Below are positions 7,631-25,499 of a stretch of 27,080 nt of DNA, one piece after another. Both the position numbers and the translations under genes were made by a program. The notes beneath the pieces are model-generated. The model searched no databases and was not told where the DNA came from. It saw only the letters and a program-made list of their open reading frames with translations. The stretch covers positions 1 to 27,080 of IMG/VR virus record IMGVR_UViG_3300017971_005357. One strand, given 5' to 3'. Positions within the stretch are counted from its first letter, which is position 1; the number at the start of each line of letters is the position of its first letter. The stretch is from a virus.

Positions 7631-7660
7631 TTGACAGTTCGCGCCCCGTATGCCTACCTC
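7631..7660 (+). promoter_or_regulatory. Candidate promoter of the replication block
   Basis: A perfect TTGACA -35 (7631-7636) is followed after 18 bp by TACCTC (7655-7660), which lacks the final T of the -10. The -35 lies at the centre of the palindrome ACTGT-TG-ACAGT and inside two larger inverted repeats, so binding of a regulator here would block the polymerase. The leader to the next gene would be about 120 bases and holds two hairpins. Confidence 0.45.
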
Positions 7661-7790
7661 GCTCGAACCGGCCAACCTGCACGGCCGGTCCCCACCCACA
7701 GACAGCCGGACGATCCGGCCGTCGTCCCCCTGGCGCCTGTTTGCAGGACGCGCGCCGGGGGGATCTTTCCCCATGGGAGTCACCCCCACA

Positions 7791-8033
7791 ATGACACCTG
7801 AACGACTGGACGCGGCAGACCGTGAAACGACGGCGGCGTGGATGCGCCGCGACACCTTCAGCCGATCCCTGGCATGGACGGATCTCGAAGTGTACCGGCA
7901 CGATCGCGTGAAGGTGACGATCGACAAGCTGGCGACCCGGTGGCGCTGGACGCGCGCCCAGGTGGTCGAACACGTCCAGGCCTTCCTGGCGCGTCACCCT
8001 GGGGCCTGGCGTCCCGCTGGGCTGACGGTCTGA
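7791..8033 (+). CDS. Small HTH-like protein at the head of the replication block
   Basis: An 80-residue protein. ATG 7791 is preceded by GGGAG at 7775-7779; an in-frame ATG at 7773 is a possible alternative that would add six residues. Residues about 40-65 (V-T-I-D-K-L-A-T-R-W-R-W-T-R-A-Q-V-V-E-H) read as a helix-turn-helix followed by an amphipathic helix. The Trp/Arg content suits DNA binding. It is followed immediately by the initiator gene (GTG 8036, three bases after its stop codon begins at 8031 plus two), so both are probably translated together. No named family recognised. Confidence 0.6.
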   Translation: MTPERLDAADRETTAAWMRRDTFSRSLAWTDLEVYRHDRVKVTIDKLATRWRWTRAQVVEHVQAFLARHPGAWRPAGLTV

Positions 8034-8035
8034 TC

Positions 8036-9172
8036 GTGGCAGGCTCGAACCCTCGAGCCCGTTGCATCCTGGCGGCCTTCACGGACGCCTGGGAACTGGT
8101 GGTCGAACGGCTGATCAGCCAGGGCGAGCCCTGGGACGACGAACTGATCAGGCTTGATCTGGCGTGGTGGGCTGATCAGTCCCACCACCCGACCAGGCCG
8201 CGGAAGCAGCCAGGAGCGCGCGCCCTGGCGAAACGGTGGGGCGTCACACACAAGGTCGCCCGGCTGCGCGTCCGTCGCTGGTTCGAGGAGCAAAGGGCAC
8301 ACCAGGGGCACACCCAGGGCACACCAGGGGCACACCCCGAAACGGGCGAACCTGGGGAACAGGACGAAAAGGGCACACCAGGGGCACAGGAAGGGCACGG
8401 CCAGGGCCACACGCGCGATCAAGATCCTGTCTCTGTCTCTGTCTCTGGAGATCCAGATCCACCTGGTCCCGCTGACGGGACACAGGCCAGGCGGCGAGCA
8501 CGTGAAGCTGAAGCCCTTGACGAGCTGTGGGCGTTCTGGCGAGCCCAGCGCCGGCCAGCTCCAGCTGGGAAGGACCAGGGGCGCCTGTGGCACACGTCCA
8601 GGGTGGCCGACGCCGACGACCTGGGGAAGCTGCGCCGGGCGCTCCAGGCCAGGGCGAAGGGGTACAGGAAGGCCGGGGATCGCTTCCCCGACGACCTGGA
8701 GCACGCGATCACCGACGCCCGTGACCTGATCGCCTGCTTCCACCAGGCCCCGGCCTGCGCCCACTGGCAGGGGACGAACGACCGGGACCGGGTGTTCCTG
8801 GGCCTGGGGACGCTGTTTAAGCCGGACGGCATGGGCGCCAGGTGGCAGACCACGGAAGCCTGGCGCGACGAAGGCCGACCAGTCAGGCAGCTCGAGGAGC
8901 AGCCCACGGCCGGCGCCGGCGTCAACGGCTACCGGGACGAAGCCGACCGGGCCTGGGGCTGGTTGCTGAACCAGATCGCGGCCCGTGGTCAGAACCTGCC
9001 GCGCGTCCTGCGCCCCGACGACGCTGGGAAGGAACGGGCGATCCAGTTCGCCCTGAAGGCCGTGGGCGGCGTCCAGGCGCTCGCCGGGAACGAACGCGCC
9101 GTCGCCAGGTTGCGCTGGCCGTTCGTCAATGCTTACGTCGAAGCCCGATCCCAACCGGAGACCACCGAATGA
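8036..9172 (+). CDS. Phage replication initiator / helicase-loader-like protein with origin repeats in the gene
   Basis: GTG 8036 is taken as start because it lies just behind the previous stop (8031-8033); the frame upstream of it has the composition of an out-of-frame shadow. The 378-residue product has an N-terminal winged-helix-like part (residues about 10-85) with A-R-A-L-A-K-R-W-G-V-T-H-K-V-A-R-L-R-V-R-R-W-F, typical of primosomal and O-type initiators. A Gly/His/Pro-rich linker is encoded by the 11-bp iterons. The helical C-terminal half (D-E-L-W-A-F-W-R ... W-G-W-L-L-N-Q-I) may contact the helicase. dnaB starts in the ATGA overlap at its end. The role follows from position, architecture and the embedded origin-like repeats; no catalytic motif is seen. 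Confidence 0.65.
   Translation: MAGSNPRARCILAAFTDAWELVVERLISQGEPWDDELIRLDLAWWADQSHHPTRPRKQPGARALAKRWGVTHKVARLRVRRWFEEQRAHQGHTQGTPGAHPETGEPGEQDEKGTPGAQEGHGQGHTRDQDPVSVSVSGDPDPPGPADGTQARRRAREAEALDELWAFWRAQRRPAPAGKDQGRLWHTSRVADADDLGKLRRALQARAKGYRKAGDRFPDDLEHAITDARDLIACFHQAPACAHWQGTNDRDRVFLGLGTLFKPDGMGARWQTTEAWRDEGRPVRQLEEQPTAGAGVNGYRDEADRAWGWLLNQIAARGQNLPRVLRPDDAGKERAIQFALKAVGGVQALAGNERAVARLRWPFVNAYVEARSQPETTE
8295..8414 (+). repeat. Two clusters of four 11-bp phased iterons
   Basis: The unit GGGCACACC(AG) starts at 8295, 8306, 8317 and 8328, exactly 11 bp apart. After a 43-bp step it starts again at 8371, 8382, 8393 and 8404, again 11 bp apart, the last two or three copies being degenerate (GGGCACA, GGGCAC, GGGCCACAC). 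Because 11 is not a multiple of three, each copy is read in a different frame, so the repeat is kept as DNA and not as a peptide. One copy per helical turn puts all sites on the same face, as in initiator-binding iterons. Confidence 0.85.
8415..8460. other. Candidate DNA unwinding element beside the iterons
   Basis: Directly after the iterons comes a tract with clearly lower GC than the surroundings, including 3.5 units of CTGTCT (8427-8447) flanked by GATC-containing arms (GATC at 8417, 8423, 8450 and 8456). In lambda-type origins the iterons in the O gene are followed by an easily melted segment; this tract sits in the same place. The assignment is by analogy. Confidence 0.5.
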
Positions 9173-10560
9173 ACGACACGCGGCCCATGCCGTCAGTGAT
9201 CGAAGCAGAGCGATCGCTGCTCGCGTGCTGCCTTCAGCGGCCAGCCCTGATCCCCGAAATACGGGAACACGTCAAGCCCGACGACTTCTTTCGGGACGAC
9301 CACCGGAACCTGTTCAGCTTCCTGGTGCGTCAGCACCTGGCCGGGTCGCCTGTCGACCTGGTGACGCTTCCCACCGATCTACAGGCCGCTGGCGTGTCCT
9401 ACGACCAGGTGGGCGGCCTGGTGTACCTGCTCGAACTACCAGAACACGCGGCGAGCACGGCGAACTGGTCCCACTACGCGGACCTGATCGCCAACACGGC
9501 CCGGCGCCGGCGAGCGATCGGCCAGCTCCACGCGACCACGGAGCGGGTGTACGACCTGGCAGACGACGCCGACGGCGCCGTGAACGAAGCCCTGGCAGAC
9601 CTGTCGGGGCTGGCCCGCAACCACAGGGACCGGGACCAGGGGACGCTGGACGACGCCCTGCGCGAGCTGGACGCAGAGGAGCATGACAGGCTCGAGCGGG
9701 CCGACGACACAGGGCAGGGTGGGGCCGACGTGGTGAAAACAGGGCTCCAGGCGATCGATCGGAAGGTGGCGATCTTCCGCGGCGACCTGGTGGTGCTCCA
9801 GGCGCACACCAGCCACGGGAAAACCGCGCTCGCCCTGAACATCGCAGAGAACAACGTCGTCGGGGAAGATCCCGGCCCCGTCGCGTTCTGGTCCGCTGAA
9901 ATGCGCCGGAAGCTGCTCGCCCGGCGCATGATCAGTCGGTGGACCGGGATCGACGGCTTCAGACAGCGCATGGGCTGGCTGGACGACCAGGAGCGGGAAA
10001 CCTGGGCGGCCGGCGTCCGTCGCCTGGCCGGCGCCCCACTGTGGATCAACCACAGGTCCGGCATGACGATCCACCAGCTCGTCGCCTGGGTGACGACCAC
10101 CGATCGCCAGGTCCGCGACCTGGGCTGGCCTGGCCTGCGCCTGGTGGTGGTCGACTACCTTCAGCGCATGGCGCCCAGCTCGCGCCGTATGTCGAGGATC
10201 GACGCCGTGACAGAGATGTCGCGCGAGGTCAAGGATCTGGCGGTCCGGCTGGACGTGCCGATCCTGGTGCTCTGCCAGCCCAACCGGGTCGCCCTGGGGA
10301 ACACGGACAAGCGGCCCCAGCTTCACCACCTGCGCGAGTCCGGCGCGATCGAGCAGGACGCCGACACCGTCCTGGCCGGGTACTACCACGCCAAAACGCT
10401 ACCCGAAAACCAGCGCGACGAGTGGATCAACCACTATGAGATCGAGATCCAGAAACAGCGGAACGGGGCCACCGGCCGCGGCCTGCTTCACTTCACGCCA
10501 CAGGCGACAGCGTTCCGTGACGTGACCAGCCACGAGTACCAAACATGGGGGACACCATGA
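9169..10560 (+). CDS. dnaB: Replicative DNA helicase DnaB
   Basis: A 463-residue hexameric replication helicase. The N-terminal DnaB domain runs to about residue 110 (I-E-A-E-R-S-L-L-A-C-C-L ... D-D-F-F-R-D-D-H). The RecA-like motor domain follows, with Walker A at 212-219 (A-H-T-S-H-G-K-T), Walker B with Asp329 (V-V-V-D-Y-L-Q), the helix S-R-E-V-K-D-L-A and L-C-Q-P-N-R, and L-R-E-S-G-A-I-E-Q-D-A-D with the late R-N-G-A-T-G loop. Walker A has Ala at the first position, where Gly is usual, and His before Gly-Lys. ATG 9169 is in an ATGA overlap with the initiator gene and has the CCGGAGACCACC box at 9155-9166. Confidence 0.92.
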   Translation: MNDTRPMPSVIEAERSLLACCLQRPALIPEIREHVKPDDFFRDDHRNLFSFLVRQHLAGSPVDLVTLPTDLQAAGVSYDQVGGLVYLLELPEHAASTANWSHYADLIANTARRRRAIGQLHATTERVYDLADDADGAVNEALADLSGLARNHRDRDQGTLDDALRELDAEEHDRLERADDTGQGGADVVKTGLQAIDRKVAIFRGDLVVLQAHTSHGKTALALNIAENNVVGEDPGPVAFWSAEMRRKLLARRMISRWTGIDGFRQRMGWLDDQERETWAAGVRRLAGAPLWINHRSGMTIHQLVAWVTTTDRQVRDLGWPGLRLVVVDYLQRMAPSSRRMSRIDAVTEMSREVKDLAVRLDVPILVLCQPNRVALGNTDKRPQLHHLRESGAIEQDADTVLAGYYHAKTLPENQRDEWINHYEIEIQKQRNGATGRGLLHFTPQATAFRDVTSHEYQTWGTP

Positions 10561-11255
10561 CCGGAGACCACCACCTGACCACCGATCAGCTGATCGCGTT
10601 CGCTCGAGCCCGTCTGGAGCTGGACGCCCTGATCAAGCTGGGCGATCTGAACCAGGTCGCCACGCTGATCCCGCTGTACTTCGTCCAGCCCGACAGGAAG
10701 CCCAACCAGGAGCAGGCGCCCGATCCCTTCGTAGTGGCGATCGCCTGGCAGGCCGAAGGCCCCAGCCGCGGCGTGGCCCGCTTCGTCACCGTGAAGGACC
10801 GCGAAGCCCAGGCGGCCGGCGAGCTGCCCGACCTGGACGATCCCCACCCGATCCCGTTGCCCTGGTGGTCCGACCCGGCCGGGAAGCAGTACCAGCTGAA
10901 CCGGACGCGCCGGAAGGACGGCGCCGACGCCGTGTACGTGTCCCGGCAGCTCACCACGCAGATCGCTTTCCTCGAAGCGATCGCCGTCGCCGTCCAGCTG
11001 AACCTGACGATCAGCTTCGTCTATGCGAAGCCCGGCCACGCCGACGAAGTGCGCAAGGTGGTCGCCCGCTGGGTGGGTGGACGGAACGGGAACCTGTTGG
11101 GCGGCGACGACCTGAACCGACCGACCGACGATCCCGACCGTCCCGGCGCCCCCCGTACCTTCCGGGTCGACCGGATCAGGGGCCTGGAGCTGTTGGCCGA
11201 CGAGCTGCCGCGCTGGGACGACGGGGCCTGGGTTCGAGCCCGTGGGGGTGAGTAG
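10557..11255 (+). CDS. WYL-domain-like protein in the replication block
   Basis: A 232-residue protein. ATG 10557 overlaps the dnaB stop (ATGA); an ATG at 10545 is possible but less consistent with the neighbours. The C-terminal part, about residues 140-225, resembles a WYL ligand/nucleic-acid-sensing domain: an aliphatic strand L-N-L-T-I-S-F-V-Y, a glycine-rich turn, and R-T-F-R-V-D-R-I-R-G-L-E-L-L, the usual end of that domain. The WYL triad itself is not obvious and no N-terminal winged helix is clear. The first codons include an exact CCGGAGACCACC box (10561-10572), here inside the gene. A role in replication or in responding to defence is inference only. Confidence 0.5.
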   Translation: MTGDHHLTTDQLIAFARARLELDALIKLGDLNQVATLIPLYFVQPDRKPNQEQAPDPFVVAIAWQAEGPSRGVARFVTVKDREAQAAGELPDLDDPHPIPLPWWSDPAGKQYQLNRTRRKDGADAVYVSRQLTTQIAFLEAIAVAVQLNLTISFVYAKPGHADEVRKVVARWVGGRNGNLLGGDDLNRPTDDPDRPGAPRTFRVDRIRGLELLADELPRWDDGAWVRARGGE

Positions 11256-12286
11256 TGGGCCGGACAGCGATCGAGTGGACGGAGCGCAGCCTGAACCCTG
11301 GGATCTTCGGCTGTACGAAGATCAGCCCGGCCTGCGACCACTGCTACGCCGTGCGCATGGCGCACAGGTTGGCCGGGTCGGGGATCTACCCGGAAGGGAT
11401 CACCCGTCACGAGCTGGACACGGGGACCGACTGGACCGGCCGTGTGGTCGTCAGCCGTGACCGCGCGATCCACGCCTTCGAGCAGCTGGCGCGGAAGCCG
11501 GCGAAGCCGACCCGCGTGTTCGTGACCAGCATGGCCGATCTGTTTCACCGTCACGTGCCGGACGAACACCTGGCGCTGGTGTTCGGTGCCATGGCGTCCC
11601 GGCCCGAGTACGTGTTCCTGGTGCTGACGAAGCGTGCCGCGCGCCTGGCAGAGTGGGCGCAGATCCGCGGCGCCGTGTTCCCCTGGCCGTCGAACGTGTG
11701 GGCCGGTGTCACCGTCGAAAACCAGGAGCAGGCGAACCGGCGAGTCCCGGCGCTGCTCCAGGTGCCGGCCCCGGTCCGCTTCGTCAGCTGCGAGCCCCTG
11801 TTGGGGCCTGTGGACCTGACCGACGTGACCACCAGCGGCCGGCACGTCCAGGTGTTCCGCGACAGCGTGGACGCCCTGACCGGGCGCCGCTTCCGCGACG
11901 TGGGCGACGGCGCCGTCGAGTACCCGGCCACCCCCGACACGATCGGCTGGGTGATCGCCGGTGGCGAGTCCGGCCCCGGCGCCAGGCCGACACACCCCGA
12001 CTGGTCCCGGTGGCTGCGAGATCAGGCCGTCGCCGCTGGCGTCCCGTTCCTGTGGAAACAGTGGGGGGCCTGGCGCCCCGGCAGCGTCGACAGCTGGCTC
12101 GAGGACCGCGAAGTGAAGCGGTACAGCCTGGTCGACCCCCAGGGCGCCGTGACGTACACCGACACCCTGCCGATCACCACCGGCCCCGGCGTGGCCTGCC
12201 TGGGCCTGGCCGGGAAGCGGTACGCCGGCCGCGAGCTGGACGGCCGGACCTGGGACGAAGCGCCGGACCTGGGGGTGACGCCATGA
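11255..12286 (+). CDS. Phage Gp37/Gp68 family protein (DUF5131)
   Basis: A 343-residue protein. GTG 11255 shares one base with the upstream TAG. The N-terminus has the hallmark of this widespread phage and plasmid family: I-E-W-T-E-R-S-L-N-P followed by C-T-K-I-S-P-A-C-D-H-C-Y-A, a Cys-x6-Cys-x2-Cys cluster that resembles an iron-sulfur or radical-SAM-type site. Further family marks are V-L-T-K-R, F-V-S-C-E-P-L-L-G, V-I-A-G-G-E-S-G and the terminal F-L-W-K-Q-W-G-A-W. The biochemical activity of the family is not established to my knowledge. Its place among replication genes suggests DNA or nucleotide chemistry. Confidence 0.85.
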   Translation: MGRTAIEWTERSLNPGIFGCTKISPACDHCYAVRMAHRLAGSGIYPEGITRHELDTGTDWTGRVVVSRDRAIHAFEQLARKPAKPTRVFVTSMADLFHRHVPDEHLALVFGAMASRPEYVFLVLTKRAARLAEWAQIRGAVFPWPSNVWAGVTVENQEQANRRVPALLQVPAPVRFVSCEPLLGPVDLTDVTTSGRHVQVFRDSVDALTGRRFRDVGDGAVEYPATPDTIGWVIAGGESGPGARPTHPDWSRWLRDQAVAAGVPFLWKQWGAWRPGSVDSWLEDREVKRYSLVDPQGAVTYTDTLPITTGPGVACLGLAGKRYAGRELDGRTWDEAPDLGVTP

Positions 12287-15054: not shown

Positions 15055-17832
15055 ATGACGAACGCAGCCACCCCGACCACCCCGACCACCACCCCGGCCG
15101 ACGCACCCGCGATCATGGTCGGCCTGCCCTTCAGTACCCGCGGGAAGCTGATCGACGCCGCCCAGGCCGTCGGCGCCCCGATCCTGATCAGCGCCGGCAG
15201 CCTGCACCGTCGCCGCCGTCGCCCTGACGCGAACGGCGAGCGCCCCTGGTCGTTCTGCCGGATCGGTGACGCCGCCTGGCTGAATAACCGCGGCGCCTGC
15301 CTGGACAGCGCGGGCTTCGTCGCCATGCGCCAGGGTGGGTACAGGTGGACCGTCAGCGAGTACGTGGAAATGGTCGTGACCAACCACGGCGACGACAACA
15401 GCTGCCAGCCCTTCCCCTGGATCTGGTGGTCCGCGATGGACTATTGCTGCGAGCAGGAGATCGCCGCGGATCGCGCCCAGGTTGACCACCGGATCGACCT
15501 GACGATCGCCAGCTACGGCGAGCACCTGGACGAGCTGGACTACTGGCAGGACGAAGGCGTGACCGACGTGCCGGACCCGATGCCGGTGCTTCAGGGCCGC
15601 GTGCCTGCCGACTATCTGCGCTGCGCCCAGGGGATCGCCGCCCAGCTCCGCGAGCACGGACGCGACGGCCTGCCGGCCCTGGTCGGTGTCGGGTCCGTCT
15701 GCCGTCGCCAGCTCCACGGCCCCGACGGGCTCCTGACCGTTCTGGACGCCCTGCACGCGGCGCTCCCGGCCGGCGTCCAGCTGCACCTGTTCGGCGTCAA
15801 GGGCGACGTGCTGCCCCACCTGGTCACGCGCTACCCCGGCCGCGTCCAGTCGATCGACAGCATGGCCTGGGACTACGCCGCGCGCATGGACGCCAGGAAG
15901 GCCGGCGAGCGGAACACCGTGGACAACCGGGCCGCCCACCTGATCAGCTGGTACACCGATCAGGCCGCGAAGCTGGCCCAGGCCTTCGAGCAGGACGACG
16001 GCGACGACGATCCCGACACCGACGGCGAGCGCGCCCCGGCCGACGACACCGACACCGACAGCGACCAGCTGGACCTGTTCGACGCCGACCCGCGCTGCCC
16101 GTACTGCGACACCGAGATCGAGCTGGACGGCCTGATCAGCCCCGACGGCGACACCATGGTCGACTGGCTGCCGTGCTGCCAGGACGCGCTGGACCACGTG
16201 CAGCTGTACGGCTGGGACGACTACGCCGGCGAGCGCGACGTGGACACGTACAACCGCTGTACAGGCGAGCAGGCACACCACCTTGACCATGACGAAGGCG
16301 ACAGCCTGGCCCTGTGGAAGCTGGAGATCGTCAACCCCGGCCCCGGCGTCCGTGGCTGGCAGACGGACGTGTTCGCGGACGTGACGAAGCACCACCGACA
16401 CCACCGGGCGCCCCAGGGGTGGAAGTACGGGATCGCCGTGTACAACGGTCGGAAGCGGGTGGGCGTGGCCGTCGTCGGCCGCCCCGTGTCCCGTCACCTT
16501 CAGGCCCAGGAGCCCTACACGCTGGAGATCACCCGCGTCTGTACCTGGGGATCGCGCAGCCAGCGCAGGAACGCGGCGTCGAAGCTGTACGGGGCCGCCT
16601 GCCGGGAAGCGAAGCGCCGCGGGTACAAAGCCGTGATCACGTACACCCTGGCCGACGTGGAAAACGGATCGAGCCTGAAGGCGTCCAACTTCACCGACGA
16701 GCACCAGACGAAGGGTGGCAGCTGGGACCGTCCCAGCCGCGGCCGTGACGACAAGGCCCCGACCGGCCAGAAAATCCGGTGGCGCCGGTGGCTGTCGAAG
16801 TGGCGCCCCCCTGTCGAGGAGCAGGACGACCAGGACCAGCTCGAGCAGGCCCCGGCGACGGCCGACCAGGACGCCCCCGTGTCGTCCCCTGACGCGGCCG
16901 ACGAGCGCCTGGCAGCTTCCGACCCCCAGGACGACGCCCAGGACGCCCCACGGACGCCACAGGCGAACGTCGACAACGACGGGGGCATGGACGACGGGCC
17001 GACGGTGGACGGCCTGCGCCTGACGTGCGAACGCTGCCGCCAGCCCATGCGCCAGGTGGTGCAGCTGTTGGGCGGCGACTACTACGTGCAGCCCTGGCAC
17101 GCAGACGGGAAGCGATCCCGGTACGTCAGCGAGATCGATCCGGACGTGTGCGCCCCCTGTGGCGACGAGCTGATCGAAGCCTGCGAGCAGTACCACGCCA
17201 GCCTGGACCCTCGCGCGACGATCTGCGACAGCTGCGACGGCGATCCCGCGAGCTGCCCGGCGCTCCAGGCCGGCGACGACGACTGCGACGACGACTGCGA
17301 CGACGACTGCGACGGCGACGACGACGGGGACTGCGATGGCCCACCAGGAACGGACGAAGGCGCAGAACCAGCCGAAAACAGCCCCCAGGACAACGACTGC
17401 GACGACTGCGACGGCGACGACCAGGCCGACGCCTGGACGGAAGTGATCGAAAGGCTCGAAGGCATGGCCGGGTGTCAGTCCGGCGTGTCGGCGTTCGCGG
17501 ACCTGACGCCCCTGTGGGCTCGCCTGCTCGCCAGCTCGCGCCCGTCCCCCCACGTCTGCGCGGTCACGGCCCTGTCCCTGTGCCTGAACGCGGCAGCGGC
17601 CGACGGCGTGGACCTGGACGACCTGTTCGACGTGTCGACGGCCAGGACGCCCACCACCGATCCGGCCCGGCTGATCGAGGCCCTGAACCTGATCGCCGCG
17701 TGGCTGGTGCTACCAGACAGCCACCCAGGCGCCCCGTGGGCGGCCTTCCTGTCCATGACCGATCCCGACCCCCCACCGGACGACGGCGACGACAGCGACA
17801 CCGACACCGACGGCGACGGGGGGGCCAGGTGA
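15055..17832 (+). CDS. dpdA: DpdA-like DNA deazaguanine transglycosylase fused to an XF1762-type acyltransferase
   Basis: A 925-residue multidomain protein; ATG 15055 follows the box CCGGAGACCACACC. Residues 20-310 match DpdA-type members of the tRNA-guanine transglycosylase superfamily, which insert 7-deazaguanine bases into DNA: Leu-Asp84-Ser-Ala-Gly-Phe, P-V-L-Q-G, Gly211-Val-Gly-Ser-Val-Cys-Arg-Arg-Gln219, L-H-L-F-G-V-K and Ile-Asp268-Ser-Met-Ala-Trp. Asp84 and Asp268 would be the catalytic pair. The usual Cys cluster after this domain is absent, but an acidic linker leads to a zinc ribbon, Cys348-x2-Cys351 and Cys374-Cys375. Residues about 425-566 match XF1762-family GNAT-like proteins: H-H-R-H-H-R, V-G-V-A-V-V-G-R-P-V, L-E-I-T-R-V-C-T, L-Y-G-A-A, V-I-T-Y-T-L and G-G-S-W-D-R-P-S-R. 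Then come Cys pairs (658/661, 699/702, 724/727) and an Asp-Cys repeat tail. Domain calls are from memory of the families. Confidence 0.8.
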   Translation: MTNAATPTTPTTTPADAPAIMVGLPFSTRGKLIDAAQAVGAPILISAGSLHRRRRRPDANGERPWSFCRIGDAAWLNNRGACLDSAGFVAMRQGGYRWTVSEYVEMVVTNHGDDNSCQPFPWIWWSAMDYCCEQEIAADRAQVDHRIDLTIASYGEHLDELDYWQDEGVTDVPDPMPVLQGRVPADYLRCAQGIAAQLREHGRDGLPALVGVGSVCRRQLHGPDGLLTVLDALHAALPAGVQLHLFGVKGDVLPHLVTRYPGRVQSIDSMAWDYAARMDARKAGERNTVDNRAAHLISWYTDQAAKLAQAFEQDDGDDDPDTDGERAPADDTDTDSDQLDLFDADPRCPYCDTEIELDGLISPDGDTMVDWLPCCQDALDHVQLYGWDDYAGERDVDTYNRCTGEQAHHLDHDEGDSLALWKLEIVNPGPGVRGWQTDVFADVTKHHRHHRAPQGWKYGIAVYNGRKRVGVAVVGRPVSRHLQAQEPYTLEITRVCTWGSRSQRRNAASKLYGAACREAKRRGYKAVITYTLADVENGSSLKASNFTDEHQTKGGSWDRPSRGRDDKAPTGQKIRWRRWLSKWRPPVEEQDDQDQLEQAPATADQDAPVSSPDAADERLAASDPQDDAQDAPRTPQANVDNDGGMDDGPTVDGLRLTCERCRQPMRQVVQLLGGDYYVQPWHADGKRSRYVSEIDPDVCAPCGDELIEACEQYHASLDPRATICDSCDGDPASCPALQAGDDDCDDDCDDDCDGDDDGDCDGPPGTDEGAEPAENSPQDNDCDDCDGDDQADAWTEVIERLEGMAGCQSGVSAFADLTPLWARLLASSRPSPHVCAVTALSLCLNAAAADGVDLDDLFDVSTARTPTTDPARLIEALNLIAAWLVLPDSHPGAPWAAFLSMTDPDPPPDDGDDSDTDTDGDGGAR
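17275..17310 (+). repeat. Three perfect 12-bp repeats encoding Asp-Asp-Asp-Cys
   Basis: GACGACGACTGC is repeated three times without a mismatch at 17275, 17287 and 17299, coding for residues 741-752 of the DpdA fusion protein. Looser copies follow up to about 17425 (D-C-D-G and D-C-D-D-C-D). Regularly spaced cysteines in an acidic tract could bind metal ions; recent expansion by slippage is likely because the units are identical. Confidence 0.9.
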
Positions 17833-19070: not shown

Positions 19071-20381
19071 ATGACCGACGAAGCACCGACGACGGATCAC
19101 CCTGCGACCTGGTGGCCTGCGACGAAGCTGCACCCGTGGGCTGAAAACCCGGTCGAACACCCACCGGAACAGATCGCGGAGATCCGCGAGTCCCTGAAGC
19201 TGAACGGCTGGGGGGACGTGCTGGTGGCCCACTGGCCCAGCTGTCGGCTGATCGGTGGTCACGGGACGCACCAGGCCGCGCTCGAGCTGCTACGCGACGA
19301 CCCGGCCTGGTGTCCTGACGGCTGTCCAGAGCCCGGCCTGGTCCCCGTGCGCTTCCGGACAGGCCCCTGGGACGAACAGGAAGCCCTGGCCCTGGCCCTG
19401 AACCACGCCACCGAAGGCCGGAAGTACCGATCGGCCGTGCTGGGCGGCGTGCTGAAGCGGATCGAGGATCGCCGCGAAGCGGGCCAGCGGGTCGGCTTCC
19501 ACGGCTTCCCCGTGTCCGACGTGCGCCGACACCTTCGACGCTTCCGGCAGCCAGCCACGGACCCGTCGACCGTCCCCGACCCTGGCCCCGGCGAGCTGCC
19601 CGACACCCCGGCGTCGAAGCGCGGCGAGCTGTACCAGCTGGGCGATCACCGGCTGATCTGTGGCGACAGCACGGACGCCGACACCCAGGATCGCCTGTTC
19701 GACGGCCAGGCGCCGGACGTGTGCCTGACCGATCCGCCGTACTGTTCGGGGGGCTTTCAGGAAAGCGGGAAGGCAGCCGGATCAGTCGGCACCCGCGGCG
19801 ACGAAATGATCGCCAGGGACACCCTGTCCACCCGTGGCTATCAAGCCCTGATGCGCCGTGTCCTGGGCCTGACGCCGGCCGGGGTGGTGTACGTGTTCAC
19901 CGACTGGCGTATGTGGATCAACCTGTTCGACGTGGTGGAGGAGGCCGGGTACGGCGTCCGAAACATGATCGTGTGGGACAAGGGGACGCCGGGCATGGGG
20001 GTCGGCTGGCGCCACCAGCACGAGCTGATCATGGCCGCGATCAACGTCCGATCGCCGTTCGACCCGTCGAAGGCCCAGGGGAACGTGCTGGACGTGGACG
20101 CGGCCGGCCTGCTCCTGAAGGCGAAGCGCACGGGGAACAGGCTCCACGCCACGGAAAAGCCGGTCGATCTGCTACACACGATCCTGACCGTGACCGACCT
20201 GTGCGAGCGGGTACACGATCCCTTTGCCGGGTCGGGGCCGACCCTGATCGCCGCGGCCCAGGCCGGCCGGACCTGGTACGGAATGGAGCTGTCCCCCCAT
20301 TACTGCGACGTGACGCGCCGGCGCTGGACCGCCTGGGCGAAGGAAGCCGGGATCGAACCTGGGCCGGGGGCGCTGGAGTGA
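19071..20381 (+). CDS. ParB-like domain fused to DNA methyltransferase (DPPY)
   Basis: A 436-residue protein; ATG 19071 is preceded by CAGGAG. Residues about 15-120 are a ParB/Srx-type domain: H-P-W-A-E-N-P, I-A-E-I-R-E-S-L-K-L-N-G-W and the box Gly62-Gly63-His64-Gly65. Residues about 180-430 are an amino-methyltransferase with Asp221-Pro-Pro-Tyr224 before D383-P-F-A-G-S-G389, the permuted (beta-class) order used for N6-adenine or N4-cytosine. The fusion is frequent in phages and mobile elements; the ParB part probably binds DNA or a nucleotide cofactor. A -10-like TACCGT lies 20 bp before the start codon, but I see no matching -35. It is likely to methylate phage DNA and protect it from host nucleases. 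Confidence 0.87.
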   Translation: MTDEAPTTDHPATWWPATKLHPWAENPVEHPPEQIAEIRESLKLNGWGDVLVAHWPSCRLIGGHGTHQAALELLRDDPAWCPDGCPEPGLVPVRFRTGPWDEQEALALALNHATEGRKYRSAVLGGVLKRIEDRREAGQRVGFHGFPVSDVRRHLRRFRQPATDPSTVPDPGPGELPDTPASKRGELYQLGDHRLICGDSTDADTQDRLFDGQAPDVCLTDPPYCSGGFQESGKAAGSVGTRGDEMIARDTLSTRGYQALMRRVLGLTPAGVVYVFTDWRMWINLFDVVEEAGYGVRNMIVWDKGTPGMGVGWRHQHELIMAAINVRSPFDPSKAQGNVLDVDAAGLLLKAKRTGNRLHATEKPVDLLHTILTVTDLCERVHDPFAGSGPTLIAAAQAGRTWYGMELSPHYCDVTRRRWTAWAKEAGIEPGPGALE

Positions 20382-24554: not shown

Positions 24555-25499
24555 GTGGCCCAGCGTCGACTGAAGCGATCCCAACGGCGGGAACTGATCC
24601 GCCAGCTGATCCTGGGGGGCGCGACGGACGCAGAGATCGGGGAACAGTTCGCCCAGGGCTTCACGATCAGGGAAGGCCCACACACGGGGAAGCACGTGAA
24701 GGCCACGGCCCCGACGATCCGGGGCGACCTGGCGGCGATCGCTGACGAGTACCGCGAGCTGGTGACGGACGCCACCAGCGTCGTCAGGCTCGAAGGGTCC
24801 GCCGTCGAACGGCTGCACCAGACGGCAGGCGCCGCGCTCCTGGCGCAGAACTACGCCGGCGCGACCAGGGCCAGCGTGGAGCTGATCCGCGCAGCTCGTG
24901 ACGCCGCCAGGTACGACACGGCCGACGAGGATCTGGACCGTCGGATCGATCACGCGCTGGGCCGGAAGTACGCCCCCCGGCGTCGACCTGGCAGGCCGTC
25001 GAAGCTGAACCGGGCGATCGTCGCCCAGGTGGCCGACGATCTGCGCCTGGGTATGACGCGCCAGGCGGCAGCGGCCAGGGCCGGGGTGGGCGCCCCCACC
25101 CTGTACGCCTGGCTGGCCCAGGGCAGGGACCACCAGGCGGCCGGCCGTCGCTCCGTTTTTCGAGAGTTAGCCGACGCCGTGGAAAGGGCCGACGCCGACT
25201 GTCAGGCGTCAGCCCTGGCGACGATCAACCAGGCGATCCGCGACGGCAGCTGGCAGGCCGCTTTCCGCTTGCTGGAGTGTCGCCACCCCGACGAGTACGC
25301 CAGGCGCCCGGCCGTGGCCGTCCAACAGAACACGGTCGTCCAGGCCGACGGACCGGCCATTGTGACGGGTGTACCGATCGCAGAGCTGGCGGATCTTTCC
25401 CCTGACCAGCTCCGCGCGATAGCCTATGATCCCGACACCGACACCGACACCCAGGAAGGGGGACACCATGATCCAGATCGAACACGGGCCGACGAGTGA
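24555..25499 (+). CDS. Probable terminase small subunit
   Basis: A 314-residue DNA-binding protein; GTG 24555 is one base after the upstream stop. The N-terminal part has one helix-turn-helix (R-R-E-L-I-R-Q-L-I-L-G-G-A-T-D-A-E-I-G). The middle has a second, R-P-S-K-L-N ... R-Q-A-A-A-A-R-A-G-V-G-A-P-T-L-Y-A-W-L, followed by F-R-E-L-A-D-A-V-E-R-A and W-Q-A-A-F-R-L-L-E-C-R-H-P-D-E-Y-A. This second block is the usual sequence of phage small terminases that recognise the packaging site. The double HTH and the long N-terminus are unusual. The last 32 bases overlap the next gene, and a promoter and GACACC repeat lie within its 3' end. The large subunit is not in the window. Confidence 0.6.
   Translation: MAQRRLKRSQRRELIRQLILGGATDAEIGEQFAQGFTIREGPHTGKHVKATAPTIRGDLAAIADEYRELVTDATSVVRLEGSAVERLHQTAGAALLAQNYAGATRASVELIRAARDAARYDTADEDLDRRIDHALGRKYAPRRRPGRPSKLNRAIVAQVADDLRLGMTRQAAAARAGVGAPTLYAWLAQGRDHQAAGRRSVFRELADAVERADADCQASALATINQAIRDGSWQAAFRLLECRHPDEYARRPAVAVQQNTVVQADGPAIVTGVPIAELADLSPDQLRAIAYDPDTDTDTQEGGHHDPDRTRADE
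25402..25430 (+). promoter_or_regulatory. Promoter inside the end of the terminase small subunit gene
   Basis: CTGACC (25402-25407) and TATGAT (25425-25430) are 17 bp apart; TATGAT is the best -10 in the window. It is followed by three GACACC units (25434-25451) and by ATG 25468. Confidence 0.45.

Follow-up and report, generated by a model that had tools for sequence, protein, structure and literature searches.

A probable replication origin of phased 11-bp repeats within the putative initiator gene of an unclassified phage

Why would a phage gene directly upstream of dnaB carry a short DNA word repeated every 11 bp, and could this array mark a replication origin? The locus lies in a 27,080-bp window of phage DNA, the whole stretch analyzed here (IMG/VR record IMGVR_UViG_3300017971_005357, positions 1-27,080; linear and probably a partial fragment). 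The phage is GC-rich (70% GC in the window) and otherwise unclassified, and megablast with the whole window returned no match. The gene that holds the repeats (8036-9172, plus strand) starts with GTG at 8036, in a frame open from 7838, and encodes a 378-aa orphan protein, P0001, a putative replication initiator. The replicative helicase gene dnaB follows (9169-10560, plus strand): its ATG at 9169 overlaps the P0001 stop codon (ATGA), and its product matches Pfam DnaB_C (4e-58), the DnaB N-terminal domain (4e-21) and PHROG_19 (6e-78). Upstream of the P0001 gene lie SbcD- and SbcC-like genes.

Elsewhere in the window, 11255-12286 encodes a Gp37/Gp68-like protein about 42% identical to Mycobacterium and Gordonia phage proteins, a similarity that may hint at an actinobacterial host but is not proof of one. 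Hexanucleotide arrays of CCGACA/CGACAC recur at 24-82, 16044-16065, 17790-17811 and 25432-25451, the first comprising 9.8 perfect copies. An Rfam search gave no matches.

Phased repeats and a weak duplex inside the P0001 gene

The array comprises two groups of units at 11-bp pitch on the plus strand. Group 1 (8295-8336) holds four exact copies of GGGCACACC, at 8295, 8306, 8317 and 8328. Group 2 (8371-8412) opens with a fifth exact copy at 8371 and continues with GGGCACAGG at 8382 and GGGCACGGC at 8393, each with two changes relative to GGGCACACC, and with GGGCCACAC at 8404, a poor match that improves when shifted by one base. The earlier note on this DNA had claimed eight such units: five are exact and the last three degrade, while the 11-bp pitch, the two groups and the 43-bp step between them (8328 to 8371) are exact in the sequence. 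No further exact copy of GGGCACACC was found on either strand of the window, and this is the sole exact 8-mer family there with at least four copies per 160 bp in at least two reading frames. TRF also reports the array (8294-8337, period 22, 100% match, score 88). The window's inverted-repeat list contains no repeat pairing within one unit.

Since an 11-bp unit shifts the frame with each copy, the peptide does not repeat; the copies occupy all three reading frames and encode AHQ, GHT and GTP. We compared the array with synonymous recodings in which the peptide was held fixed and codons were drawn from the phage's own usage. Taken together, the eight units agree with their consensus at 64 of 72 positions; the null gives 53.5 ± 1.7, and none of 20,000 recodings reached 64. 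A consensus-free measure, the pairwise identity of the eight units, gave 201 of 252 against 149 ± 9, a value reached by 0 of 2,000 synonymous recodings. When codon-preserving shuffles were used instead, the observed lag-11 autocorrelation in a 33-bp window was reached in 4 of 5,000. In this sequence of 70% GC, a cruder test, lag-11 autocorrelation over 80-bp windows that take in the unrepeated gap, fell short of significance against a Markov null (44 observed, null maximum 45). The suggestion that selection acts on the DNA rather than on the peptide is thus borne out by the use of three frames and by the failure of all 20,000 recodings to reproduce the array.

A lower-GC tract with a CTGTCT repeat had also been reported after the array, and (CTGTCT)x3.5 is indeed present at 8427-8447, where it encodes VSVSVS. 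It lies within a putative DNA unwinding element (8418-8457), the least stable 40-bp duplex of the window: by nearest-neighbour energies, the 40 bp at 8418 take stability rank 1 (lowest) among 27,040 segments, and with 25-bp or 60-bp segments the same site is among the two or three weakest loci. Its dG is -52.8, compared with -64.9 ± 1.3 in the synonymous null, and because 0 of 20,000 recodings were as weak, 8418-8457 is weaker than its peptide requires. The Ser codon TCT is used three times in the tract and by one of the 249 serines elsewhere in the phage. We rejected the idea that the CTGTCT hexamer is special in itself, because hexamer repeats also occur elsewhere in the phage; what stands out is low stability and codon choice.

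These results bear on a simpler explanation, in which slippage made a tandem repeat that merely encodes a flexible interdomain linker rich in Gly, His, Thr and Pro and has no function as DNA. The array does encode a presumed inter-domain linker, and other hexanucleotide coding repeats exist in the phage, such as CCGACA at 24-82. However, the change of frame at every copy leaves no repeated peptide, rare codons in the array preserve the DNA word to an extent that none of the 20,000 and 2,000 recodings matched, the weak tract after the array likewise exceeds what the peptide needs, and the same layout is found beside dnaB in unrelated phages (see below). We therefore regard a slippage-made linker as very improbable.

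A function in DNA might also lie outside replication initiation. Plasmid centromeres carry direct 11-bp repeats as well, and the array could serve autoregulation or partition in a ParR/parC-like manner; in keeping with this, the product of 19071-20381 joins a ParB-like N-terminal region to a DNA methyltransferase, with PHROG matches to both. On the other side, the array sits within the gene and not upstream of it, a search for promoter-like sites found none, and no ParR/ParM-type gene was recognized next to the array with Pfam and PHROG. The melting tract and the adjacency of dnaB favor an origin over either function, which makes autoregulation or partition highly improbable.

Phased repeats beside dnaB in other phages

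We surveyed 80 IMG/VR loci, selected by dnaB similarity and blind to repeats, together with seven annotated phage loci. Arrays were defined as repeat families present in more than one frame with a spacing of 11, 22 or 33 (±1) bp. In this first set, mid-gene repeats at multiples of 11 bp occurred in 27 of 121 genes near dnaB, compared with 6 of 259 other genes, and 36 of the 40 multi-frame families near dnaB were mid-gene. The remaining 94 of the 121 genes had no detectable phased array, in part because many of them are not initiators. As our definition of "near" dnaB had been adjusted after a first look, the procedure was frozen and rerun on 42 held-out loci, which have no sampled 60-mer in common with the loci of the first set but may be related among themselves. 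The enrichment was replicated, with arrays in 8 of 60 near genes against 1 of 135 control genes (p = 4e-4). The best common period was 11.0-11.1 bp, and the 3-bp signal was weak.

The weak duplex recurs along with the repeats. Among 35 array-bearing genes, including the window's own, 24 had the weakest 40 bp of the gene on the 3' side of the array and no more than 100 bp away, against an expectation of 4.6, and 2 had them upstream of it. In 20 of the 35, the fixed 60 bp that follow the array were less stable than their synonymous alternatives (z > 2), as opposed to 1 of 70 control segments from the same genes. When proteins of array genes were compared with PHROG, 8 of 10 matched initiator, O-like or DnaD-like loader families; those of loci L050 and L079 matched no such family. 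This points to a homology-free rule for use on other phages: a gene beside dnaB in which repeats spaced by multiples of 11 bp precede a weak duplex enforced by codon choice probably contains an origin. The held-out set confirmed the phased-repeat part of this rule.

Other features of these loci were less general or of another kind. A step of about 43-45 bp between two groups recurs in phage L (44), L093 (44), L013 (43) and L048 (45), but was rejected as a general rule because it showed no enrichment over controls. Two genes upstream of dnaB, L006 1387-2244 and L008 1482-2396, carry exact arrays of 7-bp pitch (GGAACAGG and CTGATTCC, respectively) in all frames, possibly another type of iteron. 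Alternating dipeptide/hexanucleotide tracts (SSSS, TETTTETT, EREGER, PSPSPS; compare VSVSVS) stand after or near repeats in L011 5332-6162, L020 3100-3999, L024 2465-3487, L033 3291-4028 and L102 1071-1946.

The P0001 protein and a proposed course of initiation

Taken together, the array and its weak tract (8295-8457) very probably form a theta-replication origin inside the phage's own initiator gene, as in λ O and P22/L gene 18. Comparative and codon-level evidence drawn from sequence strongly supports the placement of this origin within the initiator gene. Cumulative GC skew had no clear turning point at the array in this linear, probably partial record.

P0001 is a putative replication initiator by virtue of its position and of the repeats laid out within its gene. 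No close relatives were found in IMG/VR, GTDB genomes or a phage collection, and P0001 had no Pfam or PDB sequence match. PHROG gave no meaningful match even at E < 10, and no O-like family, although the same library recognizes 8 of the 10 comparison proteins. Modeled by AlphaFold2 without an alignment, full-length P0001 reached a pLDDT of 41 and its N-terminal 94 aa a pLDDT of 60. The N-terminal model is helical and helix-turn-helix-like, with low confidence (pLDDT ~60) and no wing. In these single-sequence models, pLDDT exceeded 70 only in the helix-turn-helix-like segment (8210-8305, plus strand; helices at about residues 59-68 and 72-90), which stops at the start of the first iterons. Fold searches with the P0001 models produced no significant match (E > 1). 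For the winged-helix protein that the earlier note had proposed, the analysis gives a pair of helix-turn-helix-like helices modeled at low confidence, with neither a wing nor a Pfam, PDB or PHROG match; judged by its sequence, P0001 is not a demonstrated homolog of λ O.

Directly 5' of the P0001 gene, a small ORF (7650-8033) contains a segment that looks helix-turn-helix-like by eye (KVTIDKLATRWRWTRAQVVEHVQAFL), while Pfam and PHROG searches gave no convincing family match. Its product is possibly a second DNA-binding replication protein. The appearance of this product and the low confidence of the P0001 helix-turn-helix leave room for an origin bound not by P0001 but by the 7650-8033 product or by host DnaA. 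We take the array repeats to be unlike a DnaA box, which counts against DnaA. Moreover, the intragenic repeats of λ (PMC7466680) and of SPP1, with gp38 (PMC6316719), are bound by the protein of the very gene that holds them, and we consider another binder improbable here.

For an origin bound by P0001, we infer binding, melting, helicase loading and origin use by analogy with λ and SPP1 (PMC7466680, PMC5043065, PMC6316719). P0001 would bind the 9-bp direct repeats, probably with one protomer per 11-bp unit, an arrangement that direct units of 9 bp at 11-bp pitch make likelier than dimers of the λ O kind. Bound P0001 would then form two clusters on roughly one face of the DNA, about four helical turns apart. 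With 10.5 bp to the helical turn, the units drift by about half a base per turn, or about 0.4 turn from one end of the array to the other, and they share a face only approximately. The P0001-DNA complex would strain the weak duplex at 8418-8457 to the point of opening. P0001 would then use its C-terminal part to bring the phage DnaB (9169-10560) onto the strand laid bare, after which the host replisome would join.

An orphan phage protein left unnamed by searches of protein families thus gains a likely function, and the phage a likely origin. A broader reading, which we put forward as tentative and rather doubtful, is that phage initiators without detectable sequence similarity to one another converged on linker iterons at multiples of 11 bp followed by a rare-codon weak segment, and that P0001 represents a new family that binds as monomers in the tightest packing, one per turn. 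If this convergence is true, origins could be found without homology.

Comparison with known intragenic origins

The closest layout, almost a copy, is that of gene 18-gene 12 in the Salmonella phage L (MW013502). Its gene 18 contains TGTCCAACGGA (at most two mismatches) at 397, 408, 419, 463 and 474. Another, partial unit was recognized by eye at 485, and the weakest 40 bp of the gene lie at 491, directly after the units. As in the window, 11-bp units form two groups inside a putative initiator gene, separated by a 44-bp step (419 to 463), and a gene for a DnaB-type helicase follows directly downstream. The two differ in repeat sequence, in GC content and in the number of units, three plus about three in phage L and four plus four in the window; a further difference is that P0001 matches no O-like family. 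The depositors of phage L annotate a putative origin at the gene 18 repeats, and six imprecise 11-bp repeats have been described as its likely origin (PMC8022706).

Our analysis recovered the annotated iterons of λ O, which served as a positive control, with the weakest segment right after them at gene position 436. λ O thus resembles the window in that its iterons sit about midway in the initiator gene and a weak tract follows them in the direction of transcription. The units themselves are built differently: each λ iteron is ~18 bp long, has internal inverted symmetry and is bound by O dimers (PMC5043065), and the spacing is 21-23 bp, whereas those of the window are 9-bp direct repeats at 11-bp pitch and lack the structure of iterons of λ proper. 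In the P22-like gene 18-gene 12 pair of phage SPN9CC, an O-like gene with iterons is likewise followed by a weak tract and then by dnaB, but the iterons are spaced 20-24 bp apart, unlike the 11 bp of the window. The signature is not universal, as the rep gene of TP901-1, which we take to be a known intragenic origin, yielded no clear phased array by the same analysis.

In plasmids, iterons are usually placed outside the coding region of rep, unlike the array in the window. Iteron plasmids of the P1, F and RK2 type do resemble the window in having short direct repeats in helical phase (PMC5043065). The oriL of SPP1, likened here by its published description, lies in gene 38 and combines direct repeats with a DNA unwinding element inside the initiator gene (PMC6316719); SPP1 differs from the window in that it also possesses oriR as a second origin and gp39 as a separate loader.

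Among these systems, the origin would belong with the intragenic origins of λ, P22, L and SPP1, whose computationally testable defining features, namely repeats in a putative initiator gene, an adjacent weak tract and an adjacent helicase gene, are all present. The λ-type origin of the earlier note is thus upheld, on comparative and codon-level evidence, as an intragenic origin, one that is P22/L-like more than strictly λ-like. The same holds for the gene pair, which had been likened to O before P: an initiator candidate does stand directly before the helicase gene, but in λ the next gene, P, provides helicase function as a loader for host DnaB, whereas the window phage encodes DnaB itself. 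The closest parallel is therefore gene 18-gene 12 of P22 and phage L, not λ O-P. The λ/P22 design was already known; of note here are the orphan initiator and the signature at codon level.
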